DNA of 64,000 bases from Manis javanica. Its lineage: Eukaryota > Chordata > Mammalia > Pholidota > Manidae. The stretch lies in the NCBI RefSeq assembly GCF_040802235.1, contig NC_133161.1:146497121-146561120 (forward strand), read 5' to 3'. The position numbers and the translations under genes were made by a program. Under the pieces are notes generated by a model. That model was not told where the DNA came from, searched no databases, and worked only from the letters and a program-made list of their open reading frames with translations. Each line of letters starts with the position of its first letter. The stretch's first letter is position 1. Shown here piece by piece: positions 2,557-53,203 of this stretch.

Positions 2557-3204
2557 TATTTAGAATGAGAAGCCACTAATGCTCCTTTCAAGGACAGGTC
2601 ACAAGAGAAAGACTGTCTAGGAGGCCTTCTCATTTGGGGCATACTGAGTTTTTATTGGGGACCCACACACTTGTTTAATTTACATGCTTATAACAAAACT
2701 GCTGACACAGAGCATTAAAGAAGATAACTTTTAATTTTTACAAAAATATACTTTAAAAAATTCTTTTTTACTCTACATCCAGATTACGTTGGCAATTTTT
2801 GGATTAAAAAAACAAAACTGAAATGAGCAACTTTCTTTCAAAAATGCAGCTGTCTGCAACAAAGAGACAGTGAAGAACAGGGAAGTGCAAACAAGCTCAG
2901 GGGGAAATAATCTGGTTCAACATAGGTGATTTTTGGCCTTTCTTACTATATCATATCTGAAGGTACAAAATATCAGGTTGTTCCACTATTTGGTGATGCT
3001 AAGTGTGATCACTTGGTTAAAACGATCCACCAGATTTCTCCATTGCAAAAGTAGAATTTAGTCATTGGTAAGTAATCTGTAGGATGACTCATAGGAGGCA
3101 TATCACATCCCTTTCCACAATATTTTTTCACCAATGTTTTGGCCTTCATTGATGATCCTTGCCTGAATCAAACATTGCCTAAGGGCTGCAAATAAGGATT
3201 TAAA
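2557..3204. other. Intergenic DNA, no gene recognised
   Basis: Mostly A+T-rich unique sequence with no conserved open frame and no recognised repeat of high confidence. Confidence 0.4.
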
Positions 3205-13959: not shown

Positions 13960-14060
13960 CTCTTTAAGAGGGGGCGGGGAACAGTGGCGTAAGTGACGGA
14001 AGAGGTGGGTCCACAGAGGAGCGGAAGCCGGAAGTGGGGCCCTCTCCGCACGTGGTCGCG
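13960..14060 (+). promoter_or_regulatory. ZPR1: ZPR1 promoter and 5' UTR: GC box, CRE-like and tandem ETS sites
   Basis: The stretch has no TATA box and is GC-rich. It holds a GC box GGGGCGGGG (13971-13979), a 'aagtgacgg' CRE/ATF-like core, and two ETS cores in tandem, GCGGAAGCCGGAAGTG (14021-14036), just upstream of the ATG at 14061. This is the usual composition of a housekeeping promoter. The transcription start is probably within this segment but cannot be fixed from sequence. Confidence 0.65.
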
Positions 14061-25315: not shown

Positions 25316-26200
25316 CGCGACGCCAGAGCCCGTGTAAGTCCGCACCGGGTGCTTCGGGACCGCCGCGGGCAGGTCTTTGGGTCGTGGCGGCAGCCCCGCG
25401 GCTACCACAGCGCTTGCTGCATAGGCTGCCGAAGGGGCAGATGCAGGACAATCGGAAGAAACCGGGTTGCGCCGTTAGAGAGATGCGGAGCGGCCTGCGA
25501 GGTGCGCCCGTCCCGGGACGGCCGGCGAACGCTCTCACCGGCGGGCCGGGCAGCTCCGATGCCCCGCCCCTTCCGGCCGGGGCCCCGCCCTCTCGCGCCG
25601 GCGCCCGTCGCTTTGCGTTGAGGAATTTTGTCCAGAGCGCCCACCCGTCTCCCCGCCCACGCCGCTGCCATGGCGGCGGCTCCGCCGCTCTCCAAGGCCG
25701 AGTATCTGAAGCGGTACTTGTCTCGGGCGGATGCCGGCGCCGACGGGGGCCCTGAGTCCTGTCGCAAGCGTCGCAGAAAGCGGCCGAAGCCTGGCGGGGC
25801 CGGCGGCCAGGGGTGAGTCGGGCCTGGCGGGACGGGCCCTGGGGCGGCCCGGCGCCCCCTCCTTCCCAGCTCCGCGCTCTGCCTGCCCTGCGCGCCGGCC
25901 GCCCGGGCCGCGCTACGCTGTGTGGGCTCGGAGCTCCGCTCAGGCCTCCGCTCGCGGCCCTGGGCCGTGTCTTCGGGGTGTTCGGGCCGGGCCGTGACTC
26001 TCCTCACGGTTTTTCCCCGCCTTGCGGCGCTGCGTGCGCTCCCGTAGAGAATGAATTCCGCGCCCCGAGAACAGCGGCGTGGCGGGTTCAGGGCCTCCGC
26101 GCCTGGGTGTTCGGGGCCCGGGGCCGGGCCGTGCGGGCTCTGCGGTCCCAGGGACTGCGGTCGGTGAGACCGCGCTCGCTGCCGGCTGCTCTTGGTAACA
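25316..26200 (+). promoter_or_regulatory. BUD13: BUD13 CpG island and promoter
   Basis: CpG dinucleotides are dense from about 25316 to 26200, in contrast to the flanks. The promoter-proximal part (25560-25620) holds GC boxes (CCCCGCCCC) and an ETS-like CTTCCGG, with no TATA. The start codon sits in 'gctgccATGGCGGCGGC', a YY1-type motif typical of start-proximal housekeeping promoters. A short upstream ATG frame (25559-25621, 20 codons) would be in the leader if transcription starts upstream of it. Several long open frames on both strands here (for example 25402-26007 minus) are GC-driven chance frames. Confidence 0.75.
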
Positions 26201-29200
26201 GTCGCACCGACAGTAACTGCCGGCGTGCGGTTCTGCCACTTGCCGGGCTCCGTTCTAAGTACTTGGGAGAAGAATTAACTTCAACTTCACAGCGCAACCG
26301 AGAAGTAGGTGGTGGTGGTATTGCCGTTTTTCAAATGAGAAAACTTTTGTAGCCCAGTGTACCGGGCTGAGCAGTGCCCCTCCTTCGAGTTCTTGCCCAG
26401 CGAGAATTAGAATGTGACGTTGTTTGGAAATAGGCTCCTTGTAGAGGTACTTAGTTAAGACGAGGTCGTGGTGGGTTAGTATGGGCGCCACATCCAGTTT
26501 GGTGCCCTTCTAAGAAGAGGGGAATTTGGACGCAGAAACCGGCACAGAGGGAAAATGACCATGTGCGGATGCGACTGACCCTGGGCCGAGTTTACGGTGT
26601 CGCCAGGCAGGGTGTGCCCGGGGCTGCTAGAAGTCACAAGAGTCGAGGAAAAATCCTCCCGTAAGGCCGTCCCAGCGGACACCTTGATCCCAGCCGCAAG
26701 CCTCCAGACCTGCGGGAGAACTCATTTCTGTTTTAAGCCACTCAGCTTGTGGTGCTTTGTTAGGCAGCCGTGTGAATCTGATACACTCAGTAAGTCACAT
26801 AGTTTTAAAGCGCTAACTCATTGCTCTTCCTGTTTTGGTTCTTGCCGCATTCTTGCATTCTGTCTTCCTGCCTTTCTGACTTGTCTGGGTTCTTTGGAAG
26901 CGGTGTCATGTAGTGTAAATAGCTTGAGCACTTTTAGAGCAGACGTAGGGTGAGTCCTAGCAGTGCCACTTTACCGGCTGTGTGGCCTTGGGCAAGATAT
27001 ATCATCTCTTTAATCCTCAGTTTCCTCATGTTTAAAATGGCAGTGATACTAATATCACATTAAGCGGTTGTGATGAAAGATGTGTTCAGTGATCGTGGCT
27101 TTTCCAGTAATGACTGTTCCCATGATGGCAGTCATGATTATTATTTGGACTCTTCAATAGCATATCCACATAAGAAACATTTATTAAATAAAATACTTCC
27201 TATGCCAGTTACTGCAGGATGTTTAGCATACGACTGTGAATGAGGAACGCATAGACCCTATTCTGATGGACCTTGTAGTTTAAGGGGGATATAGGCTTTA
27301 AACAATTAGTTACACAACTCATTGGTTTATTTCCTCTGTGACAAATGCAATGAAAGTGTTCCAAGAATGTGCAGTGCGTTCTTAGGATGTAATAGGAGCC
27401 GCCAGGGAAGGTATGCTCAGGGAAGCTGTATATATGCTAGGATCTTAAGCGTGAGTAAGAGTTTCCCGGTAAAGAATGAGAACAGTAGGTCAGGCACATC
27501 AGTGAAAACTGGGGTAAAGGATTTGCCTCATTCCAGGCACCAAAAGATGACCAGCGAGGTAGTGAACTGACGAGGCAGTGGTACAAGACAGAGTTGGCCA
27601 TATAGGCAAAGATCTTGTAGGGTTTTGAGTTTTATCCTAAAACCAATAGGTAAGTGTTTGTAGGCTGTTGTTCCAGAAGGAGTCTCCCTTTTTGATCATT
27701 TTATTTTCTCATTTAGAATGCGGATTGTGGATGATGATGTGAGCTGGACATGTATCTCCACCACTAAACCAGAAAAGGAGGAAGAAGATGATGGGGATTT
27801 ACCTGTGGTATGTATCTTTTGAGGCTGGGAAGACTTTGGAATGCATGCCTCTCAATATTGATGCCCAGTGCAGGGTAGATTTGTAAGGGGGAAAGTTGAG
27901 GGCAGAGAACAGGTGATGCTTTCAAAGAACTGTTTTACAATAATCTTTTTTGATGATGCCTATACACTCTCTTCAGCCTAGAAATGGGAACAAATCATAA
28001 AGGCAGGACTCCTCAATATCGGCGATAGAGCCATGATTAGAATTAGCCATGGTTCAGCTTGTTGGAATCTACCTTATAAACAGTGTTCAGGGTCAGTTAT
28101 AGGAAACTTTTATTTGCTCCTTTTATTCATTGATTCAACTAAACCTTAAAATTGTATACTCTTGCCTAAATACTGGAGATGCATAGATTTATAGAACGTA
28201 GTGTCTGTATGTCAGAGGTCATACCTTGAAATGGGAGGTTGAACTTCAAATAATTTCATCAATATGATCAATGTTGGAGGTACATTCTGCATATGTACCA
28301 AGTGCTATTAGAGCACAGGGAGACAGCACACTTTTTATTCCACTGGGAAATTCCATGAAGGATGTAAATATCTGAATTGAGTTTTGGAGGTTGAGTAAGA
28401 GCCAGGTGGAAAAAAGCATAGGCAGATAGCCCAGCATTGATACAGTCCTGGAACCTTTGCTGAGAACTGCCGAGAAACAAGTGAAAATGAGAGCTGTTCA
28501 AAGGCTGTGTTATATTGAAAGTCTTCAAAAATGAATTCCAGATGAGTATATTTAATGTTAATCTCAGCATATTCTACAATAGATCACTTAAAAGAAGGTT
28601 TGTTAGTAATTAGAAGGAAATAGTGATACAAGGAGTCAGTTTAGTTTCAGTCAGAATGAATCACTTAGTCCTAATTAATGTTTATAATCTTTGTTCTTTA
28701 TGTTGTAAAAGTAATACATATTTATTGTAGAATATTTGAGGATTATAAGAAAGTTAGTTTACTCATTTTCATTGAAGTGTAACTGACATACAATATCCTG
28801 TTTCTGGTGTCCATCATAGTGATTTGATATCTTTTTTATGTGATGAAGTGATCCCCACAGGAAGTCTAGTCACCATATGAAGTTATTACACTATTATTGA
28901 CTGTATTCCCTAGGTTGTACATTACATCCCATGACTGACTTGTTTTGTAACTGGGAGTTTGTACCTCTTAAATCTTTTTTGCCTATTCGCCTGCTCCCCA
29001 ACACCTCCCCACTCTGATAACCAACAGTTTCTTTCCTCTGTTTCCATTAGTCTGTTTCCATTTTGTTTTGTTTTTTAGATTCCACAAGTTTAAAGTTTTG
29101 AATATAATAATCATTTATACTGCAACCATCCAGAGATGACAACTGCTAACATTGGATGCATATCTCTTTAATTCATAGATTATACACCCTTGTATTTTAT

Positions 29201-32200
29201 TTGTTTTTCAAATACAGTTGGGATCATACTGCGCATATGGTTTTGGAGCCTGCTTTTTCACTTAATAATATGTTGTGAAAACTTTACTAGGCCTGTAACA
29301 TATTGTTTGAGAATGTAAGTTTTAATGGATGCACAGTAGTTCAGTCAACATGTTAATTTAACCTGTCCTATCACTGGACATACAGGTTATTTTCTGTTTT
29401 AAGATATAATGTTTTGATAAACATCTTGTACAGAAATCATCATAGGAATCCATTTATTTATTTCTCTGAATTGAAATTAATAGGTTAGAGAGTATGGTCC
29501 TTTTGAGCTCTTTTCCCATAATGCTTTCTAAGAGGTGGTACAAATTTATGCTCCCACTCTAAGTGTATGAGAATGCCATAATTCATTAATGCCACAACAT
29601 CATCAACAATAAATCAACAGCACACCTATGCCACTTTGGCAGGTGAACAGTAGTGTCCAGTTGCTTTGAAAAATATTGAAGTAAGTAATTTTTCATATGT
29701 TTATTGGGCATTTGAATTTTGTGAGTTTCTTGGTATTCTTATTTTTTTAGAAAATTGGGATTTTTTTCATTGACTTAATATTTGTTTAATAAGAACATTT
29801 TATGTTTTGCATGTCACAGGCATATTTTGTCATTTGCCTTTTCATTTATAATGGTTTTTAACATTTAAAAATTTTAGTTCTTATGTAGTCAAGTATGTTA
29901 ATTTTCCTTTATACTGTCTTTTGCTTGTAATGGTGACACCAGTACCTAAACAAGGGAGGGTCAACCTCCCTGATCTCTGCGCGGGTCAGAGTGGATTTGA
30001 TTATTGAGTACATTTCTCTTACTGCACGAGCATCACCACCACCAGTAACAAAGGCAAAAGATTCAGGACAGTGACAGTAACAGTGGCAGGAATAATAGAT
30101 CGTGTGCTGAGCAGTTGTCCTGTGCCCAGCACGGCTGAGCTGCCACAGATGATCTCACTGAACTTCATAGCCATCCTCGGAGTCCTACCCTTACAAGTGG
30201 GGAAGTCGAGGCTTAGAGAGAAGAGTTCACCAAAGGGTGCACAGATGTTAAGTGACAAGGCTGGGTGGGGTTTAGATCTCACTTCTTGCTTGAAAGTCTG
30301 TGCTTTGAATGCATAGTGAGAGATTTCAGTCAGAGGCTATATGAGGAATGATGGTAGGATCTTGGGAGAAGAGAGGTAGAGGGAAATTCTGATCTGAGTT
30401 TAAATTTCAGCTCTGGCACTTGCTAGCTTGTGACATTAAGAAAGTTACTTCTCTGAGTCATAGTTTGTTCCTTAGTAGTGTGGAGCCTTTCTTTGCAGGG
30501 CTGTTTTGAGGACTGAATGAGATAATACAAGTAAAACATAAAACAATGCCTTGCACATAGTCGCCACCCTATAACTAGAATTTATTATGCCAGCCATCTT
30601 CGAAAGTGTCATATAGAAAGGGGGTCAATTGCATCAATGGAAAGAAGTCATAGGAAGATAGATATTGGTCCAATAAAGCTTAAGAACTTTCTAGTACTGT
30701 CCCAGAATGCAGTGGACTGCCTTGTAACTTACTGAGTTCCCTGTCAGTGAATTGGTTCCCTGTCAGGGAGGAACTAGGTGAGTGATCATTTATCAAGGAT
30801 ATGATAGAGAAGATTCCAGATTTGTTTAGGAATTTGGATGATAAGAAATGTGATTTTATTTATCTCTTAATGACCTCCTTTGGTTGGATTCAAGAAAACC
30901 TGTTGTTGTGGGTCCTTACAATTAGAAAGGTTCCATAAAGAGCCTGAGGCCCTTGATGAGTGGCAGGCATGACAGGAAGCTGCCTGTGTTTCACTTGGAA
31001 TGTACAAAGGTAAAAGGAATTTAGCTTCCAGCTTACAAGTGGCAGTTGTGCACTGGCAGGTTAATAAAAAGGTTTGTAATAAAAGAAATTAGCCTTTGGA
31101 AGGAAATTGATTAGTCAGGGAACGATCACTAATTAAACCGTCCAGTGACAATCAGATGTTTCTGGAACAAACAAAGCTGAGGGCCACTCCATGTTTCTTC
31201 ATGGCCATTTGGGTCTGTGTGCCATGTATGTTGGGAATGGGACAGGGCATAGCTTCAAGTTCTTGAGACCACAGTGCTCCTTAGCTACACCCTGTTGTCT
31301 CTTCAACATAGTGTCCTCATTCCCACAGGTGGCTGAGTTTGTGGATGAGCGGCCGGAAGACATAAAGCAGATGGAAGCTTTTCGTTCCAGTGCCAAATGG
31401 AAGCTTCTGGGAAGTGAGTTCTAGTAATAGATAACTATTTTTCCCATTTATTGGAGAAGACTTTTTTCCTTCTCTGTGCTTCACTTTTAGAGGAATGGGT
31501 ACTGTGTTTTAGTGTGCTGTTGGTGCTGAAAAATACTGTGAAAAGAATTCAGGACTTCTTCAGAGGTGGTAAGTCATGGGAACTGAGAGACTGCTTACTG
31601 ACATTTGGGTTTTAGGGTTTCCGAGTCAGAAAGCACTCACTTCTCTCTGGCCCAGAATAGGAGAGCAGACAGGAGAGTATTTAGGCAGGACTTTGGGGAG
31701 TTCGCAAGAATCTGAGGAACAGAGTCTGGAGACTTTAACAACCTGTGTCCTCTCCCAGAATGAAGTGACTCATATATGGATCAAGGACCAGTGTTTTCTG
31801 TCCTTGTTGTTTGTCTTTGTTCTTCCTTTAAATACTGGTATTTTACAGTACGTTTTGCTCCACTTGCCTACTCTATACTCTCTCCCTAGGCTAATAATTT
31901 AACCCTAGTAAAAAAAAATGTTTGAATTCTTGAGAATTAGATAAAGGGCATTTGTCATGTCTTAGCAGAGATGAAGCCTAGTCTTAGTTGCCCTGGTATT
32001 CCCCCTGCCCAGAACAAGAAGGTGCCATTAATAAATATTTCTTGAATTGTTGAATTGCTAAGGTATTTGGTTCTTGCCTTCCTACTACTCTTTGGAAAAT
32101 CATTACTTGAGGCTTAGCAGTCATTTCCTCTTTTCCAAAAACTTGGTAGGTAGGCCTTCTTACTCAGGGGCACAGACTAAGAAATAATTATTCCCAGCCC

Positions 32201-35200
32201 TGATCCCAGTCATCCGGGCTCTGTGTGGTAGGTGGAAGTGTGCTGGGTTTTTACTCCCTCTTTTCCTTCCTTCATAAACAAGGATCTTGAATCTTGATAG
32301 GTGGTTAAGTCCACTTTACCCTTGTTCCTTTTTCACACATCCTTTATCCAGGATTTGTTTTTTCGGTATTATACTTTGTGTCTTTAGGTTAATTATCCTA
32401 CAGTTCTGATCAGAAAAATGCATGACAGTTTTCTATATAACACTTACTGATCACCATTGCCTCAGTTAATTTTCAGTACATGACTGTTACGTTTTTGGAA
32501 TGAAAACTTTATTATCGATATTCTTTTATCTGAATCCTATTCACTCTTATCCATTTTTTTCTGCCTTATCCCATAGTTGCTTTTCCGGTCTTTTCCATAA
32601 TCCTTTTTTCTTAGAGAATCATCTTGTCTCCATATTTATAGGTCGAGGAAGTGATACACACACACATAGGCAGATAGTTCTTTTTCTTTGTCTCTCTTTC
32701 AGTGCCTCATCCCCAGTTGTTACTGGAAATACTCTCACTGATTGCTGACCCTTGCTTCCTTTTTATGAATATCATGGAATTTATTAATCTCATGGATTAT
32801 ATTTACTGTCAGGTCACTCACAGATATCAGTACTTTTCTAGTCAGCCTATTTCCTAAAGTGAAGGACTTGACTTGGTTAAATTCATTCATTTAACAAGAA
32901 TTCACTGGATTCTGCCCAGCTTTTATTTGTATTTGGGCCATGGAGCTCAATGACAAGAAATGGAGGGAGAGGAGAAGCTGAATTTTGAAAATGTCCTAAG
33001 TTGCTATAAACATTTCATTCTGTTATGCCTTTGAAAATTCAAAGTCTTAAACTCTTTCCCCAACTACATATTTTTAAGGATTCCACATGGACTCTGGTGT
33101 CAAATAGATCTGGGATTTGGATGTTCACTCCACCACCTATTAGCAGTGTGACTTTGACAAATTACTTAAGCTGAGCGTCAATTTCTTCATCTGTAAAATG
33201 AGGATAAGAATATCCGCTCTTAGGCTTTTTGTGAGAACTGCTGTGCCACATCTTTGGCAGGTAGCAGGTGAGCAGTAAATGCTGACCCTTCTTTATTTCT
33301 GGTGATCACCCCGTAAGGGCACAGTGACGTGGACTGAATAGTTAGCATTTCATTTTGAAACCTGGGCACAGGTTTAGTCAGTTTGCCTTTTGAAAGGAGA
33401 GTGAGTACAAACTATAAATTACCCAGGCTAGATGTCAGGAGGACGCTCTGACTGGGGCCTCTGCACAAAGAAGGTTTTGGGGAAAGCATTGGATTGGAAG
33501 TTAGAAGATTTGCCCTGCTCACCCTAGAAGGTATAATATGGAGAATGTATTTAAAATGCTTTTGCAAATTTATGACTTGTTGGGCTAATACAAGAGATTA
33601 TTCTTAAGATACTCTCAAGTGCTGGCTTACTGACCCTACGCAAGAGAACCGCGCAGTCCTTGTGGGCTGCCTAAGTAGCTCTGAGATGTATGCTGCTGGG
33701 GCATCTTTTGAAACTTTGGTATTGGGCATGAACAGAGTATTTGTGGGAACCTGACTCTTTGCTCTTTGTGTTTAGGTCACGGTGAAGATCTGTCCTCACC
33801 CAGACATTTACGTCATGACACCCCAGATTTTTCTCCCCCAAGGAGGGCCCGTCACGACACCCCGGATCCATCTCCCCCGAGGAGGGCCCGTCACGACACC
33901 CCAGATTCTTCTCCCCCGAGGAGGGCCCGTCACGACACCCCAGATCCATCTCCCCCGAGGAGGGCCCGTCACGACACGCCGGATCCATCTCCCCCAAGGA
34001 GGGCCCGTCACGACACCCCGGATCCATCTCCCCCGAGGAGGGCCCGTCACGACACCCCAGATTCTTCTCCCCCGAGGAGGGCCCGTCACGACACCCCAGA
34101 TCCATCTCCCCCGAGGAGGGCCCGTCACGACACGCCGGATCCATCTCCCCCAAGGAGGGCCCGTCACGACACCCCAGATCCATCTCCCCCGAGGAGGGCC
34201 CGTCACGACACCCCAGACTCTTCTCCCCCGAGGAGGGCCCGTCATGACACCCCGGATCCATCTCCCCCGAGGAGGGCCCGTCACGACACCCCGGATCCAT
34301 CTCCCCCGAGGAGGGCTCGTCATGACGCCCCAGATTCTTCTCGCCCGAGGAGGGCCCGTCACGACACCCTGGATCCATCTCCCCCGAGGAGGGCCCGTCA
34401 CGACACCCCGGATCCATCTCCCCCGAGGAGGGCTCGTCATGACGCCCCAGATTCTTCTCGCCCGAGGAGGGCCCGTCACGACACCCCGGATCCATCTCCC
34501 CCGAGGAGGGCCCGTCACGACACCCCGGATCCTTCGCTCCTCCGGAAGCCTCATCGTCATCCTTCAGGTATATCTCCGAGGAGGGCCCATCATGACACGC
34601 CAGATCTATGTCCTCCTAGGGGGGCCCATCACAGTTCCTCGGATCTCTCTCCCTCAGGAAGGGCCCGCAACAGCCCCCCTGACCCAGCTCAACCTAGAAG
34701 GACTCTTGGCCCCTCGGACGCATCGCAGCTCCGGAGAGCCTGTCGTGACTCTTCCAGTTTGGCTCCTGAAGAACCTCATTCGCTGCCCAGAAACAAGAGC
34801 AGCAAAGCCCCAGGAAGGGCCTCTAGCAGAGCCTGTGCACATTGGCAGGGGCCAGGGCGCTCTCCTCCGTCCCTGTCCAAGAACAGCAAACGTGACTACG
34901 ACTTGGGTCTCTCTCCTCCACGGAAAACACAAGCCAAGTCCCATTTTGGAAGTAAGCAGCCTGATTCTAAAGGTGAGCATTTGATTGTCCACAGGGCGGA
35001 CTTATTCCCCAGGTGCTTTCTTTGCTTTGTTGGGTTTTTGTGATTTTTAGAAATGAGGAAATGAGAATGCAATTTCTTTGAAGAAGTTTTAAAACTTGTA
35101 GGGAAATGGTAAGAGATTGGGCTGAGGAGAGTTAAGAATTTACAGTGGCAGGGAGGAAGTTTTTATATATCCTTTTGTTTATTCTCCCTACCCCAAATAA

Positions 35201-38200
35201 AAATACTCCATGTTGCTGGCAGAAGCTTCAGAATGTATAGAAATGTATAGAGAAGCAGAAAAAGGGTCATACAAAACTCTGTCATTCAGAGGCAATCACT
35301 GTTAATGTTGTAGTCAGTGTTCTTTTTGTAGTTTTTTTTTCTATTCATTTTTCATGTGCTTGAGCTCTGCCTATGCAGTATATATATATACTGCATGTCT
35401 ACTCTTCCCTGTTTTTTTCACTTAACATTATCTTTCCCAAGTCATAAAAATATCTCTTTGTTGATATAATTTTTACTGGTGTGCCAGTACATAAATTCAC
35501 TTAAACATTTCCTTTATATTACAAATTTTAGGTTATTTCTGTATTTTTGCTTTTGTAATTCTATAATGAACATCCTTGTACATAAGCTGCTGACCCATTC
35601 TAAATTATTTCTTTATCTACTTTTAGGTAGCTTTCTTGTAAATTTAAGAACTTCTGGATGTGTTTTCTTAGAAATTACATAGAAATTGATTTACTAGGAT
35701 AGAGAAGTGTGTGTTTTAAAGACTTGATAGATACTGTGGGCTTCTTCTTTGGAAGGTGGTCTGTGATGCTTATGTCTTGAACTCAGGCCTGTTGAAGCTG
35801 AAATTTGCTCCATCTTTTGTCCCTAGGTATTGGTTCAATTTTTAAATTTAAATACATTGTTGTCCTGTAGTCCTATAGTTTTGGTAGTTTTAATTTTCAC
35901 CACACCACTGAGATCTGAGTGCATGTTGTTTTGCACATTCTGTGTGTGGATAAATATGACCTAGATGAGTATGTTGAGATCTCACATACTAGTCACAGTC
36001 AGTGGTAACTTGGGAGTAGGACCCCACATCCTGTGTGTTAGTTTTAAAAGTTGTCTCTGACTTCGCTGTTCTCCCATGTCATCCATACTTGTATTTATTA
36101 GGTTAGTGATAGTTCTTCATAGGAGGACTAAATGAATGCTAAACATAGCCTGGTAAGGTCTTTTATTGGATTCTGCCAAGGGGATTAAAGACTTTATTCT
36201 TTAATTTCTAGGGTCTTCCCCCAGCCATAGGACATTTCATATAAGCTCTTCACCTAGGAGATGTCAGAGTCACACGATGGACTCTTCTTACCCCAGTGGC
36301 AGTTGGAAAGTGTCTGATTCAGATCTGTCACCTCCACGGAATAGACCTAGGCCCCAGACCTCTGATTCTGACCTCTCCCCACCAAGGAGGAAACAGAGGG
36401 CTGGATCGTCCGATTCTGATCTATCTCCACCTCGAAGGAATCAGCCTCCAGGAAAGAAGGTAGGACTTTCCCCATGTCATTCTCTTAGAGTGTCTTCTGT
36501 CTTTTAACTCTGTGCATGTCACAAGCCGGAGGAGGAGGAAGCAGCTCTTGGTAGCATAGTGAGCTGTTCAGAGGACCTCTAGAGCTCTTCCCTTCCTTCC
36601 GAGGGCAAGACTGCCTTTAGCCCAGCCCAGATGAACTTGCAAATACCAGGTTTCCTAAGCAGCTTCTGTCTTTATAGCCTCTCTGTTCTACAAATCTCAT
36701 TTTAATAGGTCCAGAAAAACTCTATATTTTCTTATGAATAAACTGAGAACTGTAGTTTACAGAGTGGAGTTAGGATTATAAATCTGTCAAACAGATGACA
36801 TGTTCGAATCCTACTTCTACTTACCATCTGTGAGATTTGAGCAAGATATGTAATATATTTAAGGCTCAGCTTATCTATAAACTGTGGATAATAGTAGTAG
36901 ATACTTCATAAGTTGTTGTGAAAAATAAGTTAGTGTCATTGTGTCATAAATAATACCAAACTAGTAGTCTCACTCCAGTGAGTGAGTTGGTTAAGAAACA
37001 GTGATACAGTCTGTGGTGTGCACGTTTTCCTCCACAAAGACTTCTCAGGTGAGTCTCCTCTGTAGCCCATGAGGTTCTGGCAGGGAAGGGTAGCCTGTCC
37101 CTAACACAGGAAGAAAGGTTCTTCTCTTTTGGAGGACAAAGTTCAGTTTGTGTTTCAACTGGATACTTTGACATTTTAGCATCTCTTCAGTCCCTGAATA
37201 ATATTAATCATGTTTAACGCATTGTTAAGGATATCAGGATATACAGTATACTCCATTTGTGGGTTGGTTTGTTAAATTGATACAGGTGGAGTTGAATAAA
37301 GTTTTGATTTGGTTGTATCTTGTCATCATCCTAAAATATATCTGCAGTTAAACGGTCTAAGATTTGCTTAAGTTTGTATTTTAAATGGAATACTTTTTAA
37401 GTGTGTGTCTTTACTATAGGGTTTAGAGCTTGATAGAGGTTTCTGATCAAGTGACCTGAGAATGGGTCTTCATGTGTGCAGTTTATATGCTGAAAAGTCA
37501 GAAATAAAGATGGTAGCCTTTCCTTTAATATCTTGTGGGCTTATGTTTCTGTTTATTCTTAGATGTGATAGTATTATCAGTTTTCCATGAAATTCATTTT
37601 ATTTCTTCTTTTCTATTTTGTGAACCCTGTGGTTGGTAATGAAAATATAAAGTTGGTTTGGGTATTGCTGACCATCACACAAAAATGCACTAAATGTGTG
37701 TACCCATGGAGCCTCCTGCTGCGATTGTCTCATTAATGTTGGATGCCCCCTTTTCCATTGCACAGGCCGCACACATGTATTCTGGAGCTAAAACTGGCTT
37801 GGTGTTAACTGACATACAGCAAGAGCAGCAGGAACTCAAGAAACGGGACCAAGAAATAGCATTTGAAGGTAAAAATGTGGAAGTGCAGCGACCTGTCGAG
37901 ACTCATTTTTTAAAAAAAGTAGTTTATTGTAACTGAAATTTTAAACTTTTAATTGCTATCAAATGTCAGCTTCGTTTTATGCATTATTTTAACTTTTCAG
38001 TGGGTCCTCTTCCTTCCTGAAACATGTTAGATTTCAGGGTCATTGCCAATATGTACTTAGATATTGGCAGGAGCTCTTTGTAGTCTGGCTGCAGAAGTTC
38101 TTATCCAGCATCAGAATCCCAAGTGGTTGGTTTCAGTTGTTAGAATATTATTTCTGAAATTGACCGGTGTTTATCTTTAAAAGTATAATTTTCCTTTGCA

Positions 38201-41200
38201 GATGAATTCCAGTTTGCTGAAACCATATTTCGAGATAAGTCTGGTAGAAAGAGAAATTTGAAGCTGGAACGTTTAGAGCAAAGGAGAAAAGCAGAGAAAG
38301 ACTCGGAGAGAGATGAGCTGTATGCCCAGTGGGGTAAAGGGTAAGACAACCAATGAAACAAAACAAGACTGCAGTGACTGGAGGAAGTCATTTCTACTCT
38401 TCTGACCAGTTAGTTTATTAGTCTATCTTCAGAGCTGGAATGGGAAATTTCAGGGCACTCTGTCTCCTTCCTAAGAGCTGATATATTCCACACTCACAGT
38501 TGGCATTCTAGGAATTTTGTCCTTTGAAGTATTTGACCAAGGCTGCTGAAATCCATGTATTGTGCTAGAAAGAGGCACAGTCTGGCCCATCTCAGTGTGG
38601 GGGTGGAAATGTTAAACAGGATAGGCACAGCTCTCGGCTCTTCCTGCCAGGCTTGCGCAGAGCCGGCTGCAGCAGCAAAATGTGGAGGATGCGATCAAGG
38701 AAATGCAGAAGCCCCTGGCCCGCTACATTGATGATGAAGATCTGGACCGGATGCTGAGAGAGCAAGAAAGAGAGGGGGACCCTATGGCCGACTTTATCAA
38801 GAAGAACAAGGCCAAGGAGAATAAGAATAAGAAAGGTGAGCCTTCTGGGAATCATCAGAGATGGAGGTGACTTATGTGAAGAGAGAGAATCATTCGGATG
38901 ATGATACGTAGCTATAGGAAAAGAAGGCTTTCCTGTACAATTTTAGTTCCTTCTATCTGGGAATTTTGGTTCAAATTAATAGAGATCTCTATACATATTT
39001 TTCCCTCCGCCACCCAGCTCTGAATTGAATTATATAGGTCACTAACTTCTTTTCTCTCTCTCATTAGTGAGCCCTCGCTACAGTGGCCCAGCTCCACCTC
39101 CTAACAGATTCAATATTTGGCCCGGATATCGCTGGGATGGAGTGGACAGGTAAGCCTGAGTATTTCTTACATTTTGGTTTTTTCTTCCATCTGACCCTAA
39201 CCTCTCACTATTCTTAAATCATTCTACACTCTGCCTCGTTTCTTTGCTCTAATCATAAGGTTAATAATAAGAAGCAGATTCCTTCTTCTACAGTTGACCC
39301 TTGAACAACATGTGGATTAAGGGTGCTGAAATCCATATATAACTTCTGACTTTACAGAAGCTTAACTACTAATGGCCTAGTGTTGACCAGAAGCCTTATC
39401 AATAACATAAACAGTCAACATGTATTCTGTATATGTACTATATACTGTTTTCTTACAATAAAGTAAGCTAGAGAAAAAAATGTTTTTAAGAAAATTGTAA
39501 GAGAAAATACACCTCCAGTACTGTATGTATTGATACCATAAACTTCTGTTTTCTGTTTACTCACCTTATGTGTATGTAAGGACAGTCTACCCACTTCCAT
39601 ACAAATCTTACACACAGTGTTCCATCCAGTGAACACTCAGTGATGAGGGGGGTGACACAAAAGCATCCTGTACAGGTCTTGCTGTACAGTTAGATTTTTA
39701 CAGGAAGACACTCCTGCACATACATACTAGGCATGTTTATTAATTGTACAGCACGGTGATGATTCATTGTTCATTAAGTGGAAGTGAATCTCCGTAATGG
39801 TCCTCAGCCTCATGGTCTTCATTCTGAGCAGGCCGAGGAGGTGTAGGAGGCGGGGTGGGCTTGCCGTCTCAGGGGTGGTGGAGGTGGAGGAGTGGGAGGG
39901 GATAGAGGGGGAGGTGGGGGACGCGGGTACACGTGGTGTAACTGAGGAAATACGTCATAATTTCTGTTTGACTTCTTTGACTTCATTTCTCTAAAAGAGT
40001 TTCTCTCTGGCACCAGTCCTCCTTCCCCCTTGTGCTTTAGTTTCCGTGCCCGGACTGTAGAAGGAGCGTATTGTAAAGAGGTCAGAAGCAGTCTTGAATC
40101 ATTGGAACGCTTCTGCCAGATTGCATTTTGTCAGTTTGTGCTTTGGTCCTCTTTCTCCTATGTCTTCTTCCTCCTTGTCTGGCTCTGGTGCAGAAGCACT
40201 GGCCGCCATCAAGTCATCTTCTATTCATTCCTCTGGTGTGGACTATTAGCTGTTGGATTTTTCCAATGGCCATACCTTGAAACCCTTCACCCTCCTTCCA
40301 TTTTTGCCGTATCCATAATGCCTTACATGATTTCTTTGATTGGCTCTGTCGTAAATCCTTGAAGTCATGCACAACATCTGGAAACAGCAGGAAATTATTG
40401 TTTTGGGCTTGATGGCTTTCACAGCTTTTTCTCTCTAACAGTGATGGCCTCTTCAGTGGTGTGATCCTTCCAGACCTTCATGCTGTCTCTCTGCTGGGCT
40501 TCTCTTCCATGGCATTGACAATCCTTTTCATAGAGCACCGTGTGCAGTGGGCCTTAATGGTCCTTATGACCCCCGGATCTAGAGACTGAATTGGAGATGC
40601 CGTGTTTGGGGGAAGTAAACCACTTCAACGCCTTCGGTGTTGAACTCATAGGGTTCTGGGTGGCTGGAGGCATTGTCCAATAACAAAGGAACGTTAAAAG
40701 GCAGTCCCTTACTGGCAAGGAACTTCCTGACTTCAGGGAAAAACACTGATGGAACCAATCCGGGAAAAGGGTTCTCATCCAGGCCTTCTTATGGCATGAC
40801 CAAAAAACTGGCAGCTGATGTTTATCTTTTCCCTTCAAGGCTTGGGGGTCAGCAGCTGTGTACCTAAGGGCAGCCTGATCATAAGCCCAACTGCTTTTGC
40901 ACAAAACAAAAAGCATCTCGCTTCTTGCCTTAAATCCTGGTGCTCACTTCTCTTCCTTCCTTTTAAGTGGCATTTTCTCCCCCCAGAATAGGGCACTTGT
41001 GTCTATGTTAAAACTGTTTAAGCAGATATCCTTTCTCCTCAGTGATTTTCTTAATGGCATCTGGGAACTCATCTGCTGCCTCTTGCACAGCAGGAGTTAC
41101 TGCTTCTGTTATCTTGACATTTTTTAAGCCAAACCTCTTTCTAAAATTATTAAGCCATCCTTTTCTGGCATTAAATTCTCCAACTTTATACTATACAAGA

Positions 41201-44200: not shown

Positions 44201-47200
44201 TCCTTCCCCATCCAGTTGCCTTTTGATGCTGTTTCTTGCCTTACTGCTCTAGCTGGAACTTCCAGTGCAGATGTTGAATGTAAGTAGTAAGAACAGACGT
44301 CTTTGCTTTGTTCCTAGTCTTAGGAGGAAAACATTCAGCCTTTTCTCATTAAATATGTTGTAAGCTATAGATTTTTTTGTAGATTCCCTTTACTGAGTTG
44401 AGAAAGATCCTTTCCATTCCTAGTTTGCTAAAAGTTTTTCTCAGGAATGTGTTGAATTTTGTTCAAAATATATTCTGATTTTCCTTTTGGTTCATTCTTT
44501 GATCCATGAGTTACTTAGGGGCATATTGTTTAATTCCAAATATATAGACTTTTCTGGGTATCTTACTGTTACTGATTTCAAGTTTAATTCCATGGAGGCC
44601 AAAGAATATACTTCATAATATTTTGATCTTTTGCAATTTGTTAAAATGTGTTTTATGGCCCAGTATATGGTTTACCTTGGTGAGTAGTCCATTTACACTT
44701 GAAGGTAATAAGTATTCTGCAGTTGTTTGAGGCTTGTTTTGAAAAAACTTCTTTGTATTCTTTTTTAAAATAACCTTTTGTTTTGGAATAATTACAGATT
44801 TACTGAAGTTTACAAAGATAAATTGGATTCTATAACTCTAAATACAGTTTCATTACCATTTATTAGATTACCATGGTACAGTCATCAAAACTAAGAAAGC
44901 AGCATTGGAATTGTTATTATTAATGTACCATATTGTATTTGGATTTCACCAGTTTTTCCATTAATGTCCTTTTTCTGTTCAAGGATCCTGTTCAGGATAA
45001 CACATTGCATTTAGTTGTCACGTCTCCTTAATCTTGTCTTATCTGTGACAGTTTCTTAGTCTGCCTTTGCTTTTTGTAACCTTGACAATTTTTTGGAGTA
45101 TGATCAGGTATTTTATAAATGTCCCTTAATTGGGTTTGTCAGATGTTTTTCTCATTAAAAGATTGAGGCTGTAGGGTTTTGGAAAGAATGCCACAGTCAT
45201 GGAGTGCCTTTCTCATGACGTCATCTTAGTTTGTGCATGGTGATCACATGACATCATTAGTGATGCAAATCTTAAGTCACTTGGTTAAGGTAGAGAGTGT
45301 TTGCCAGGTTTCTCCACTTTAAAATTACTATTTTTCCCCTTCTGTATTTCTGTCCTCTGGAAGTGACTCCCTGAGATCAGCTTATACTCAACAGGGGACC
45401 TATTGGGGAATATCCTACATATATTATTTGGACTTTTTCTGTAGGGAATATTTGTTTCATCTCCCCATTTGTTTATTCAGTCATTTATTTGTATCAGTAT
45501 GGACTCATACATACTTTGGATTGTTATCTAGTAGTATGTACATATTGCTCAAATTGTCTCATTCTTTAGCCATTGAGAGTTCTTTCAGGTGCCCCCATCC
45601 TTTTATTTTTGAGCACTCTCTTACTTTCTGGTACTACTAGATGCTGTAGGCTCATCTTATATTTCCCCTGCCCCAACCCTAGAATCAGCCATTTCTCCAA
45701 GGAGCCCTGGCTGCTTTTGATGGAGGATGGTATTTAGAAACCAAGACCTGACTGTCAGAAGTGCTTATTACTGAGGTGTCATTGCTTCTAGGCCCTCAGC
45801 AGACAGAATGAGGTAATGCATGTATAGTAATCCATGTATACACATGTCTATAATTATTTCTGTATCCATCTGTATTTATGTGCATGTATATATAAACACA
45901 TACGTTTATATTTACACATGTATAAATATTCAGTTCATACTGATGTAACTGATTTTAATCCAGTTTTGCTTATCTATAATTTCCCTCTCCAACATTGAGA
46001 AATCTGGTACCCATCATCTACTACCCATTTTACTCATTCCAGTGTATGTTTAACAGTTTTAGAACTGAGAAATTCAGAAATGAGAAACCAATTTACCAAC
46101 TGAAGTATAGCATTTATATGCAGTTCATTTTGTTAATACTCTTATTACAGTTTCTAGTCAAAACACCATTTTCCAACGTAACGTAAAGGGCCAGCTCTCC
46201 CCCCAACCCCTCTGCCCACTGCTCTTTGTAGACATTATAATATAGCTAAATTTACTTGTCATAGTCTGCAGTCTACCCTGGGGTCTCCTGACATCTGGGT
46301 GATTTTTTCTTTTCATAGATTACTTATATTAATGTTTACTCTTCATTGTGTGTAGGTCTATGGGGTTTGGCAAATGCATAGTCATTCATCGACTGCCCTG
46401 GTACTGTATAGAACGGTTCCATCCTCCTAAAATTCCCCCGCCTGTCAGTCCTCTTTTCATCATTTACACCTCCTCCAACAATGCCTTGCAATCACCGCTA
46501 TTTTCTGTCCTTATAATTTTGCCTTTTCCAGAATGCCACATGTATGGAATCGTGCAATATGTAGCCTTTTGAGTCTGACTTCTTGCATTTATCAAAATAC
46601 TTAAGATTCACCCATGTTCTCACTTGAATCTTAAAAGTGCTTTATTCTTCTCATTCCTGAGTAGTGCTCCATTGCATGGATATCCAGTGGTCTGTTTATT
46701 CCCCAGGTGAGAATATCTTGGTTGCTCCCAGTTTTTAGTACTTGTGAATAAGCCTGTAGGAAACATTTGTGTATAGGTTTTTTTGTGGAAATAGTTTCAG
46801 CTTACTGGGTAAATACCCAGCAGTTCCTGGATTGTGTGGTGAGACTACATTACTTTATGCGAAACTGCCAATGCCTTCCAAAGTGGCTGTCACATTTTAC
46901 ATTTCAGCAAAGAATGAGGACTCCTGTTGCTCAGGATATACTTGCCAGCATTTGGTATTGTCATGTTTTGGATTTTAGGTGTGTAGGTTTATTACTCAAT
47001 TTTAATTGTCCTGTTATCTTTTTAGCTATAACTCTGCAGTTTTTTTAGTGTTTGCACTAAGGATCAAATATGTATCTTTGATCCCACCATGGCCTACTGA
47101 GAGTATAATAGTACTCTTTCATGTAAAATGTAAGCAAGCACCTTGCAACACTGCAGTTCCACCCACCCTCTCTTTTTTATGCTATTACATATATATAAAA

Positions 47201-50200: not shown

Positions 50201-53200
50201 GACTGCTCAGGGGGTCAACACCCCAACGTCTGCTTTGTTTAAGGGTCAGCTGTATTTCTGGAACAGATCTATGATATGTTATAGCTGAAAAAGCCGTAAG
50301 GTCAATTAACCTAACTCTCATTATTTAAAAGAGAAACTGAGGTCCAGATAAATTTAACAGTTCAGCCAAGTGTCATTCAGCTCACATGATAAAGCTGGAA
50401 TTAGAACCCTGGGCTTCTGATTCTCCTGAAGCTCTTTGCACTGTGAGTTCTCTTTGTGGTTTGTTTTTTTGATTTTGTTCAGGGTTTTGTTTGTTATTCA
50501 TATGTCCTTTGTATGATCATATTAGTATTGATTCTTTTAAGTACTTTCTCCCCAAGGTGAAAACCAGTGTGTCCTTGGTGCTCTAGAATACTAAGCATGC
50601 TTCTGAAGTTGGAGATGGTGCCATTCATAAGAAGCTCCCTTCTTCTACAGTCTTTCAGTACTCACCTGCTCATCCCTTAGGGAAGGCCTTAGGAAAAAGG
50701 GCGGCTTGTTATCCCAGTCAGTTCAGGAATACTTACATACATGTTATAACTTTAAGCAGCTATGTACCAGGTGCTTGGGGCTCACAATTAGTAAGACACA
50801 GTCACTGAGCCTAGGAACTCATTTTCTATCTAAAGGAAAAGATAGATAAGTAAATAATTTCAGTACTGCTTGGTAGGTATTACTGTAGAGGGTTTTCATG
50901 GTGCTTTAGGAGTGTGAAGGAGGCATGAAATCAGCCATGGGAAAGAGTGGTCAGGAAATGCTTCTAGAGGAGAGGACACATAAGCTTAGTCTTAAGGGTT
51001 GCCAGTCACCAGCCAAAATGAGAAGGACAGGAAGGATGTTTAAGGAAGAGGGTCCTATGTGTGCACAGTCTCGTGGATGTGGAACATCGTAGTGTTATGG
51101 CAGGTGGAGTGGGGCAGTCAGAAATACTTTGCTGGCGTTGGATAGCATTAAGTGTGGAGTGGAGTTCTGTGAGATGGGCTGGAAAGGTACGTAGGGGCCT
51201 GGTCACAGGAGGCCCAGAGGGGTTTCTGAGGAGCTTGGCTTTTGCCCTGTATGCAAAGGGGAAATACCGACGGATTAACAGCAGCTGTGCATTTTTAGAT
51301 AGGCGAATCATTTTGGCAGTAATGTGAAGCATTGGAAAGGCGTAAGTTTGTAAGCAGAGAGGAAAGATACAAGGCTGTGGGAGTAGATCAGCTAAAGGTG
51401 ACGGAGGTCAGAATTGTGACAGCGGAGGTGCGGGTGGAGAGAAGAGGAGGTGGAGAAGTGTTTGGGGGATAGGATGGCGGGACCTCGTGGCTGACTTGGG
51501 GAGAGGGAGAGATCACTGGATTCGGCAGTAAGGAAGCACATTGACGACCTGTAAGAGAGCTGACTCTGTGGCATCGTGAAACAAGAGCCAGGTTTTAGTG
51601 TGTTAGGGAGTGAATGGAAAGTGAGGAAGTATAGACAGTAGATACAGGTTCTTTCAAGAAGTTTATATAATAAGACAGATTGCATAGAATTAGAAAGGAG
51701 GTGAGGTCCACTGCATGAAACTTCCCGTGTATTGGCATCCATGACACACTGCTTCCGGTTCTTCTCTCTCTTCGTTTCTTCTCAGCCTCCTTTACAAGCT
51801 TCTTTTCCTCTCTGTGCCCCTAAAATGTTCCTCAGGGCTCCGTCCATGACCCTTAGCTGTTCTTACTCCATGTGCTCTGTGCCAGATCTAGTCACATCTT
51901 CAGTCACCAGCTATATTCAGGTGACCCCAAATCTGTGTCGGCAGCTCAGTCAGGGGTGCCTCGCTGCCCATTGGATCTCCCCATGGATTAGTACTCGAGG
52001 CACCTTCAGTGCGGTGTTTTCCGATCTGAACTCAGCAGCTTCCCCTACCTGGAACGTGTTCCCACTCTTGTGTTTTGTGTCGGTTAGTGGCAGCTTCATT
52101 CATTCAGTCATTGAAACTATTAACCCGCGAGTCACGCCTGCCTCCTCGTCCTTTGCCCTCATGTGTGATCGGTCACTGAGTCCCACCGTGTTTTCTTTCT
52201 GTCCCTCTTCTTCCTCATCGCGTAGTCAGCTGTTGCCTGGGACTTGCAGTCCCTCTCCTGCCTCCAGTCGCATTCAGAGTGATGATACCTTCGAAATGCA
52301 GGTGATGCTCCTGCTTTAAGTGTGTCCCTAAGCTTTTTGCCGTGGCCGGCGGAGCTGATGATGCCTTGGCCCCTGCCTGCCCTTCTGGCTCTGCCCCAGA
52401 CTCCCTTCGCCATGCTTCAGGCTCTAGCCTTGCCGGTTTGCCTCCGGTTCCCTGTGGGTGCCGGGCTGCTTCTCACTGTTGTGCTTCTGCTTTTGTTGCC
52501 CCCGCCGTGCTCTGTCCGGAAGGCCCTCTGCACCCTTCTGCCCCCCAGCTCCAGGCCTCTTGTCAATTCTATCTTTTCAGACTGAGCTTAGGGGCCACCT
52601 GCACAAATCCTCCCTGACCATTCTTGTCTAGCCTTCTCCCAAGCTTAGTAAGGTCCTTGTTCCGTTTCCACGAAACCCAATGCGTATTTCTATCATAGTT
52701 CATGCTTTTTATTTTAATTATTGGCTTGAATGTCAGTCTCTCCCATAGTCTGTGAGTCCATCAGGATAGGTGCTGTGCTGCACTTACTTTCATAATACAG
52801 TGCCTAGTATATAAAAAAATTCAAGTGTTTGCGTAGTGACTAGGTGAAGTATGGTGCAGGCATCAGCCGGGAGCCAGCTGGCCTCCGGAGAGGCGAGCGG
52901 GTGAGGACAAGGTGTCAGGGAGGGAGGAGGGGCTGAAGAAGAGCCGAGAGGATGACTTGCGAATTTTGTCCTTCTCACTCTGTTGCATATGCCTTGAATA
53001 TTTCCACATAACTGCCTGGTTTTCTTCACTCATTGGATTGTGACCACCTCTTTTTCAAGAATAAATGTCCGGTTCAGGATTCTGGCTGATGAGTATCTCT
53101 TGATTGCAGATCCAATGGATTTGAACAGAAGCGCTTTGCCAGGCTTGCCAGCAAGAAGGCGGTGGAGGAACTTGCCTACAAGTGGAGTGTTGAGGACATG

Positions 53201-53203
53201 TAA
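25670..53203 (+). CDS. BUD13: BUD13 homolog, RES-complex spliceosomal protein
   Basis: Ten coding exons: 25670-25812, 27717-27807, 31329-31413, 33776-34972, 36212-36459, 37766-37868, 38202-38340, 38651-38835, 39068-39149, 53110-53203. All are GT-AG with consistent phases, giving 788 residues. BUD13 is a subunit of the nuclear RES complex (with SNIP1 and RBMX2) that joins the activating spliceosome and aids splicing and retention of pre-mRNA. The N-terminus [17 protein letters not shown] and the exon 2-3 block ([19 protein letters not shown]) are conserved. Residues 119-365 are 19 tandem 13-residue repeats. Residues 541-585 hold three DSDLSPPR motifs. Residues 589-788 form the conserved C-terminal BUD13 region ([56 protein letters not shown], ending WSVEDM). 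Human BUD13 is 619 residues from memory, and almost all of the excess is the repeat array. The last intron is 13,960 bp. Confidence 0.97.
26230..26345 (-). mobile_element. MIR-family SINE in BUD13 intron 1
   Basis: 'gggctccgttctaagtactt' followed by 'aagtaggtggtggtggtatt' and 'caaatgagaaaactttt' tracks an MIR consensus (a stretch reading about 'ggcactgttctaagcgcttt'). It lies just downstream of the CpG island. Confidence 0.6.
26640..26790 (+). mobile_element. Fossil MaLR (MLT1-type) LTR 3' piece
   Basis: 'tctgttttaagccactcagc' and the following 'tttgttaggcagccgtgtg' are the characteristic end of an MLT1-type LTR. Only the terminal part is recognised. It is an old fossil in BUD13 intron 1. 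Confidence 0.6.
26890..27660. mobile_element. MIR and L2 pieces in BUD13 intron 1
   Basis: A clear sense MIR lies at about 26890-27090 ('accggctgtgtggccttggg', 'cctcagtttcctcatgttta'). It is followed by an antisense L2-like stretch at about 27200-27660 ('ggaccttgtagtttaagggg', 'atcttgtagggttttgagtt'). No gene is present. Confidence 0.65.
28765..29650 (-). mobile_element. L1 3' fragments in BUD13 intron 2, antisense
   Basis: At 28765-29085 the + strand reads 'tgaagtgtaactgacataca', 'ctgtattccctaggttgtac' and 'tctgataaccaacagtttct', the antisense 3' UTR of a medium-age L1 of the kind common in laurasiatherians. From about 29100 to 29650 a second, older LINE-like antisense stretch follows ('atgttttgataaacatcttg'). 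Confidence 0.7.
30090..30600. mobile_element. Two MIR SINEs in opposite orientation, BUD13 intron 2
   Basis: An antisense MIR occupies about 30090-30315 ('agtcgaggcttagagagaag', 'aagtgacaaggctgggtg') and a sense MIR about 30385-30600 ('agctctggcacttgctagct', 'tgaatgagataatacaagta'). Both are diverged. Confidence 0.75.
31414..33775 (+). other. BUD13 intron 3
   Basis: A 2.36-kb intron. A sense MIR is clear at about 33085-33295 ('tagcagtgtgactttgacaa', 'catctgtaaaatgaggataa'). The rest is A+T-rich, and the open frames (for example 31576-31902) have no recognisable domain. The acceptor of exon 4 is 'gctctttgtgtttag'. Confidence 0.6.
33811..34551 (+). repeat. BUD13: Coding minisatellite in BUD13 exon 4: 19 copies of a 39-bp unit
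   Basis: Nineteen head-to-tail 39-bp units fit without gaps, each encoding 13 residues of the pattern RHDTPD(P/S)SPPRRA. Units differ at only a few sites. The S-type units (GAT/GAC TCT) are numbers 3, 7, 11, 14 and 17. Units 14 and 17 also share ACC-to-GCC and CCC-to-CGC changes. Unit 19 is diverged (SLLRKP) and is followed by decayed copies ([26 protein letters not shown]). Because 39 is a multiple of 3, copy number can change without breaking the frame. The segment is predicted to be disordered, basic and rich in S-P sites. The collapsed or expanded copy count could also be affected by assembly. Confidence 0.95.
35188..35700 (-). mobile_element. Old L1 fragment in BUD13 intron 4, antisense
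   Basis: 'gtcattcagaggcaatcact', 'gttatttctgtatttttgct' and 'ataatgaacatccttgtaca' are antisense 3' LINE-1 wording. The stretch includes a perfect 24-bp palindrome at 35373-35396. Confidence 0.55.
36770..36930 (+). mobile_element. MIR SINE in BUD13 intron 5
   Basis: 'atgttcgaatcctacttcta', then 'ggctcagcttatctataaac' and 'gttgttgtgaaaaataagtt' follow sense MIR. No RNA gene or exon is seen in the rest of this intron (36460-37765). Confidence 0.6.
39291..42965 (-). mobile_element. Near-complete Tigger (pogo-like) DNA transposon in BUD13 intron 9
   Basis: The left end CAGTTGACCCTTGAACAAC and the right end TTGTTCAAGGGTCAGCTA are terminal inverted repeats, with TA on both outer sides as target duplication. 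The minus strand carries transposase relics. At 42041-42415 lie helix-turn-helix-side residues ([33 protein letters not shown]). At 40554-40916 lie core residues ([24 protein letters not shown]). The C-terminal [16 protein letters not shown] is near 39995. The frame is interrupted by frameshifts and stops, and by an insertion at 41189-41994. Without the insertion the element is about 2.85 kb, close to a full-length Tigger. It is domestication-free: the open pieces are short and decayed. Confidence 0.9.
41189..41994 (+). mobile_element. Retroposed 0.8-kb insertion nested in the Tigger element
   Basis: A perfect 16-bp duplication AAATTCTCCAACTTTA at 41173-41188 and 41995-42010 brackets the insert, and its right end is an A-rich tail (aaaaataaaaaaataaat). 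Both are hallmarks of L1-machinery retroposition. The Tigger transposase relic resumes on both sides. The insert has the wording of a known mammalian interspersed repeat ('gttttattgcccttgtctag', 'aatgcatgatcaaaaccgaa'), but I cannot name the family. It could also be a retrocopy of a longer transcript. Confidence 0.75.
43389..44120 (+). mobile_element. hAT-type DNA transposon fragment (Tip100/Zaphod-like)
   Basis: The stretch opens with 'cagtgattctcaaactttt' and 'gatctcaagacccctttaac', then 'tttatgtgggttatatctac' and later 'acttcattacatggcatcaa'. From memory this is a hAT-class element of the Tip100 group. The left terminus is clear. The right end is cut by L1 sequence near 44120-44150. Confidence 0.6.
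44150..47450 (-). mobile_element. Composite of antisense L1 fragments in BUD13 intron 9
   Basis: At 44150-44760 the + strand is antisense L1 ORF2 ('ccatgagttacttaggggca', 'aattccatggaggccaaaga'). From 44770 to about 46190 it is antisense L1M-type 3' UTR ('tgtcacgtctccttaatctt', 'ccatttctccaaggagccct'). At 46200-47050 another copy follows ('catgtatggaatcgtgcaat', 'ctgggtaaatacccagcagt'). At least two independent old insertions are present, and no frame is intact. Confidence 0.7.
47451..49720 (-). mobile_element. Further antisense L1/HAL1 fragments in BUD13 intron 9
   Basis: 'tgaaaaaatagtacggtgtg' and 'aaccatagtacactatcaaa' (47480-47600), then 'cttatttggggtttgttgag', 'ctccagaatttccatttgat' and 'tatattggacattatgaatg' (48280-48860), are antisense L1 3' wording. 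Short unique stretches between them show no gene. Confidence 0.6.
49945..50258 (-). mobile_element. Short Tigger derivative, related to the 39291 element
   Basis: Ends 'caggtaacccgtgagcagca' and 'tttaagggtcagctg' with flanking TA, and interior 'ttctctagcttactttattg' and 'ttatcggtaaggtttctagt', match the terminal parts of a Tigger2-like element without the transposase. It is a deletion-type MITE about 0.31 kb long, about 7 kb downstream of the near-complete copy. Confidence 0.85.
50290..50460 (-). mobile_element. MIR SINE in BUD13 intron 9
   Basis: 'agagaaactgaggtccagat' and 'gataaagctggaattagaac' are the antisense MIR core. This is a diverged but clear copy. Confidence 0.7.
50740..51560 (-). 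mobile_element. L2 fragment, antisense
   Basis: G/A-rich text ('ctatgtaccaggtgcttggg', 'gtcaggaaatgcttctagag', 'ggtttctgaggagcttggct', 'gcattggaaaggcgtaagtt') reads as the reverse complement of L2 ORF2 3' and UTR sequence. It lies next to a sense L2 at 51780. Frames at 51006-51332 and 51061-51327 are relics. Confidence 0.6.
51780..52650 (+). mobile_element. L2 ORF2 3' end and UTR, sense
   Basis: 'cagctatattcaggtgaccc', 'ggatctccccatggattagt', 'tacctggaacgtgttcccac' and 'aatcctccctgaccattctt' correspond in order to L2 ORF2 and its UTR. The 195-codon open frame 51732-52319 is a relic or chance frame in this element and should not be annotated as a gene. Confidence 0.65.

Follow-up and report, generated by a model that had tools for sequence, protein, structure and literature searches.

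Exonic VNTRs composed of in-frame tandem units that lie within one exon and are gained and lost have been described in MUC1 and PRDM9 (available portions of PMC12776774 and PMC3890296). The array analysed here, which is located in exon 4 of the BUD13 gene of Manis javanica, shares this arrangement, but its product is a spliceosome subunit and it is known here from one full-length M. javanica sequence. The encoded arm also resembles the RS-like disordered regions of spliceosomal proteins (PMC3415423, in the text available) in being disordered and rich in Arg and Ser, but it differs from them in that S/T-P sites dominate: the 19 units contain no RS and two SR dipeptides, a composition that does not define an RS domain or an SR protein. 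Among the titles and opening parts of abstracts in the open-licence PMC literature, no paper on the BUD13 exon-4 array was found. The repeat that the available text of PMC4106801 reports for BUD13 consists of TAT units in intron 2 of the human gene and is different from the exon-4 array.

The sequence analysed (hereafter, the window) is a 64,000-nucleotide stretch of the M. javanica genome (NC_133161.1, positions 146,497,121 to 146,561,120). BUD13 is encoded on its forward strand in 10 exons: the coding part of exon 1 (25670..25812, based on the match to human BUD13 and the joined gene model), exon 2 (27717..27807), exon 3 (31329..31413), exon 4, which contains the array (33776..34972), exon 5 (36212..36459), exon 6 (37766..37868), exon 7 (38202..38340), exon 8 (38651..38835), exon 9 (39068..39149), and exon 10, including the stop codon (53110..53203). 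Exon 5 carries a second, separate and shorter repeat, of another 13-residue type, that has the DxSPPR core in common with the exon-4 units. All introns are of the canonical GT-AG type, and the joined frame is open for exactly 788 residues with no internal stop, in agreement with the product length given in an earlier note on this DNA. The identification of the gene as BUD13 made in that note is likewise confirmed: exons 4 and 1 aligned with human BUD13 (PDB 5z56_Z) at E 1e-66 and E 6.5e-18, respectively, and the best match, M. javanica BUD13 isoform X3 (P0121, 769 aa), which is identical to the window BUD13 over residues 1-757, contains the Bud13 C-terminal domain (PF09736; 141.2 bits against a cutoff of 27). 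Open frames in other phases were not counted as genes. Elsewhere in the window, an ORF at 11173-12183 reached the apolipoprotein A1/A4/E domain (PF01442), and we take it from its position to be probably APOA5. An exon at 13968, which we presume to be a ZPR1-like first exon, gave no Pfam match. In the human gene order, ZPR1 and APOA5 are neighbours of BUD13.

Tandem Repeats Finder detected a single array in exon 4 (33811-34532; period 39, 18.5 copies, 90% matches, and 0% indels), and register alignment placed nineteen 39-bp units at 33811..34551 on the forward strand. Each unit encodes 13 residues, and the frame is open from end to end; with in-frame tandem units, a period divisible by three, and a location within one exon, the array is a coding minisatellite and a candidate exonic VNTR. 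The 18 good units share a mean pairwise DNA identity of 91.5%, with 10 identical pairs among 153 and 12 variable columns among 39, and the earlier description of near-identical in-frame units holds for these 18. It does not hold for the 19th unit, which agrees with the others in its first half only and is diverged in the second. Eleven sequence classes are represented among the 19 units. Self-identity at a lag of 39 bp is 0.90, against a maximum of 0.38 in 1,000 base shuffles over lags of 6-199. The GC content of the array is 0.68, and its CpG observed/expected ratio is 0.83, compared with 0.33 in the window. About four degenerate units follow on the 3' side (34552..34707, forward strand) when the sequence is read by eye, two of which were found by the unit parser. 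A role of the array in mRNA structure was rejected, since the repeat RNA is less stable than its shuffled versions (z +2.98, with all 20 shuffles at least as stable).

Two exact block repeats were identified within the array, both on the forward strand. In the first (33832..34175), 188 bp are repeated at a lag of four units, so that 33832-34019 is identical to 33988-34175 and units 2-5 correspond to units 6-9; none of 5,000 shuffles of the unit order gave a match as long, the shuffle mean being 85 bp. In the second (34254..34486), 116 bp are repeated at a lag of three units (34254-34369 and 34371-34486, i.e. units 13-14 and 16-17). The 116-bp block carries a variant of the 13-residue unit that occurs twice in M. 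javanica and is not present in the M. pentadactyla protein. The exactness of both repeats indicates that the latest lengthening in M. javanica took place by blocks, and the recent expansion proposed in the earlier note is thereby supported. If neutral change is assumed to run at 2.2e-9 per site per year, the lack of differences in the two blocks limits their ages to at most about 4.4 and 5.8 million years, unless gene conversion has reset them.

The number of units differs between the two pangolins for which proteins were compared. M. pentadactyla (P0122 and P0002) has 14 units at the protein level and M. javanica has 19; when degenerate units are included, the parser counted 16 and 21, respectively. 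This difference between congeners is in line with the earlier note. In the available text of PMC12888049, M. pentadactyla branches outside all the other Manis species listed and is not the sister of M. javanica. Mean unit identity within the two pangolins is 0.89 and 0.83, compared with an intermediate 0.86 between them, so that units are not clearly more alike within these two species. The exon-4 tail also differs between the pangolins at 12 of 146 positions, compared with 2/118 and 3/252 elsewhere. In an older model of M. javanica BUD13 (P0001; 448 aa, present only in nr), the third unit is followed directly by sequence from close to the exon-4 end; as its junction, read by eye, has no GT-AG in the window sequence, it was taken as a faulty model. 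P0121 and the window probably share one assembly, and P0121 is therefore not an independent confirmation of the 19 units.

The repeat region spans 307 residues in M. javanica and 145 in the 619-residue BUD13 of macaque (P0009). The earlier note had equated the 169-residue excess over a 619-residue protein with 13 units, a sum that turned out to be coincidental: compared with macaque, the repeat region accounts for +162 residues and exon 5 for +10, with -3 in the remainder. The note was correct in describing the human repeats as less numerous and more diverged, human BUD13 having 10 units matched by regular expression and one partial unit.

Three protein searches yielded 203 proteins, and 204 sequences including that of the window were parsed with a profile built from the same proteins. 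The median was 10 units; three sequences had none, and 57 had 0-8, many of these being short isoforms or partial records. At least 18 units were present in four of the 204 (the window, P0121, Nycticebus with 21, and Cinclus with 19), in a sample in which long arrays are over-represented because one search was seeded with the pangolin array itself. From the matches, 60 vertebrates were picked by hand, about one per genus and leaning to full-length forms. All 60, among them sharks, frogs, reptiles, birds, and mammals, carry 9-21 units. Mean unit identity is 0.74 within species and 0.67 between species, and the within-species value is the higher in 1,692 of 1,770 pairs (equal or reversed in 78), although these pairs lack independence and the comparison is uncorrected for phylogeny. 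Unit positions 4 (T or S), 7, and 13 are sorted by lineage, with Gst values of 0.51, 0.35, and 0.39 over the 60 species, whereas S8 (0.96), D6 (0.93), R11 (0.93), and P9 (0.91) are nearly constant.

These data indicate that the minisatellite has been lengthened and re-copied repeatedly in separate lineages and that M. javanica lies at the top of the length range seen. Long or homogeneous arrays are not peculiar to this animal: slow loris has 21 units and the dipper 19, and mean unit identity is greater in platypus (0.94), bamboo shark (0.89), and chicken (0.87) than in M. javanica (0.83). The arrays of Nycticebus (P0057), Cinclus (P0143), and Ornithorhynchus (P0177), with 21, 19, and 13 parsed units, respectively, are found in the same gene and at the same place and are built of the same 13-residue unit, but they differ from that of M. 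javanica in the residues at positions 4, 7, and 13 and in unit order. Among the 204 parsed sequences, the M. javanica proteins have the most units close to their own consensus (16 of 21).

The unit motif appears to be old and kept, as the 13-residue unit also occurs in BUD13 of a green alga. The Closterium sp. protein (P0198), the one alga in this evidence and met among the general protein matches, contains ten parsed units of the RHDSPDLSPPRRA type flanked by BUD13-like ends, and it matches human BUD13 in the N-terminal, repeat, and C-terminal parts. It is thus a true BUD13 with the same unit type as in pangolin, but the algal units are interrupted and less regular. In the matched yeast BUD13/CWC26 chains, the alignment is confined to the C-terminal part, so the array is unnecessary for RES in yeast. 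Either the unit would be older than the plant/animal split and have been lost in yeast, or it would have had two separate origins. Among the units of the M. javanica array, pS is 0.21 and pN 0.039, so that, per site, silent differences are about five times as dense as replacement ones. Together with the presence of the unit in the alga, this runs counter to the earlier reading of near-identity at silent sites as evidence against old purifying selection. Silent changes account for 6-7 of 11-12 changes (P 0.03-0.19 under mutation models with and without CpG effects), and this excess, which derives from 12 variable columns and is not robustly significant, is suggestive of constraint inside the array.

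The motifs R-x-x-S/T-P and S-P-x-R resemble those of proline-directed kinases. The 19 units (247 residues) contain 32 S/T-P sites and four aromatic or aliphatic residues, and their calculated net charge would change from +21 to about -43 if all 32 sites were phosphorylated. The repeat region as a whole contains 37 S/T-P sites in pangolin, 15 in macaque, and 17 in human (residues 107-252). The dipeptide counts given above do not support SR-type kinases, named in the earlier note alongside proline-directed ones, as main candidates. Phosphorylation of the units is plausible: human T159, S197, S222, and S271, predicted substrates of CIT kinase in the available text of PMC12833521, all map to the fourth position of a unit, intact or degenerate, partly by construction since they were chosen through the D-S/T-P motif. 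BUD13 is also included in a phosphoproteome table (PMC6213538, in the part available). A table in PMC12952702 gives a disorder fraction of 80.61 for human BUD13, and yeast Bud13p is described as disordered along its complete sequence in the available text of PMC4515762.

We consider it probable, on balance, that the array represents an old BUD13 coding minisatellite in a long version specific to its lineage, a reading that extends to the presumed function set out below. Units may be gained and homogenized by in-register unequal exchange or replication slippage, with the reading frame kept because 39 is 3 x 13. Selection would keep the D-x-S-P-P-R core and the S/T-P at positions 4-5. The units are predicted to form a disordered arm, rich in Arg, Pro, and Ser, on this spliceosomal RES subunit. 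Each unit would contribute about two proline-directed phospho-acceptors, by which the number of units would set the acceptor count and the charge swing, and a longer arm may alter RES binding or intron retention. The array most likely works as an extendable disordered arm in which the number of acceptors follows copy number. A bolder version is unlikely: that the array is an ancient self-homogenizing phosphosite array with a copy number that is variable inside a species and determines how far RES can be phosphorylated, the Malayan pangolin representing an extreme allele. If this were true, the minisatellite would be a fast-evolving tuning element for intron retention.

Neutral change in length is a strong rival to a functional array, with a probability that we place somewhat short of even. 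According to this explanation the motif is kept, but slippage or unequal exchange, acting on a GC-rich stretch of a disordered region that tolerates change, would produce copy number and homogeneity as by-products, and length would have no functional effect. The base composition and CpG content of the array relative to the window agree with it, as do the range of 9 to 21 units over 60 species, the fast change of the adjoining exon-4 tail, and the lack of robust significance of the silent excess, whereas the near constancy of S8, D6, P9, and R11 over the 60 species, the presence of the unit in the alga, and the recurrence of the DxSPPR core in exon 5 argue against it. The neutral explanation nevertheless stands because these latter observations support a constrained motif and not an effect of copy number. 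It is very unlikely that the block repeats are false duplications produced by the assembly and that the true array is shorter. The jump in P0001 after three units reveals that at least one earlier model failed to resolve the array, and the probable origin of P0121 and the window from one assembly leaves the 19 units without independent confirmation. However, the array is 741 bp long, far shorter than long reads, and its 11 sequence classes imply that most differences between units are not copying errors. In addition, HiFi haplotype-resolved assemblies are described for both Manis species in the available text of PMC11825179, although the window may not come from them.

The least probable reading, to which we give hardly any credence, is that the repeat serves as a multivalent phospho-Thr ligand of the FHA domain of SNIP1 (Pml1), a RES partner. 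RES includes an FHA protein (PMC4515762, available text), the FHA domain of SNIP1 is required for contact with RNPS1 (PMC10166177, in the part available), and 17 TP occur at unit position 4 in pangolin. Nevertheless, TP is absent from position 4 in 12 of the 60 species, a distribution that led us to set this role aside. FHA domains need phospho-Thr, and the +3 residue here would be the variable column 7. BUD13 was also not among the reliable hits of the SNIP1 co-IP/MS in the available part of PMC10166177.

Core spliceosome subunits are usually regarded as slow-changing. BUD13 is such a subunit, and its coding array acquires, loses, and re-copies units between lineages but retains the acceptor core, in at least one alga as well as in vertebrates from sharks to mammals. 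Variation in repeat number and its effect are directly testable, given the haplotype-resolved long-read assemblies of pangolins and the hundreds of individuals already resequenced (PMC11825179 and PMC12888049, in the parts available).

Two further features of BUD13 concern its splicing. Within exon 4, just 3' of the array, an in-frame GT-AG stretch of 90 nt (34568..34657, forward strand) resembles an exitron, on the basis of annotation only. Its removal yields the junction PSG|RAR, as annotated in M. pentadactyla isoform X3; the stretch would explain this isoform and is an exitron candidate. By protein position, the donor at 34568 corresponds to the short-isoform junction in 4 of 22 protein pairs (Daubentonia, Ursus, Colobus, and Saimiri), the remaining pairs having different junctions or not being genuine isoform pairs. 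Intron 9, which spans 14 kb, contains part of an alternative terminal exon (44217..44252, forward strand), encoding 11 residues and a stop, that matches the annotated M. javanica isoform X3. This exon is annotated in both pangolins, with sequences that include SCLLFLFLALLL.

Outside BUD13, a near-perfect inverted repeat was identified at 59187-59305, with 40-nt arms that are 95% complementary and a 39-nt spacer. The segment 59180-59312 folds at -79.6 kcal/mol (z -9.7). The inverted repeat gave no Rfam match at the gathering threshold and may be the remnant of a palindromic transposon or else a precursor-like hairpin. Repeats of at least 40 nt are scarce in the segments 1-33700 and 35000-64000, which were scanned separately, and comprise two inverted pairs and, near 3200, one family rich in AT. 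In the whole window, seven tandem-repeat rows were recorded.
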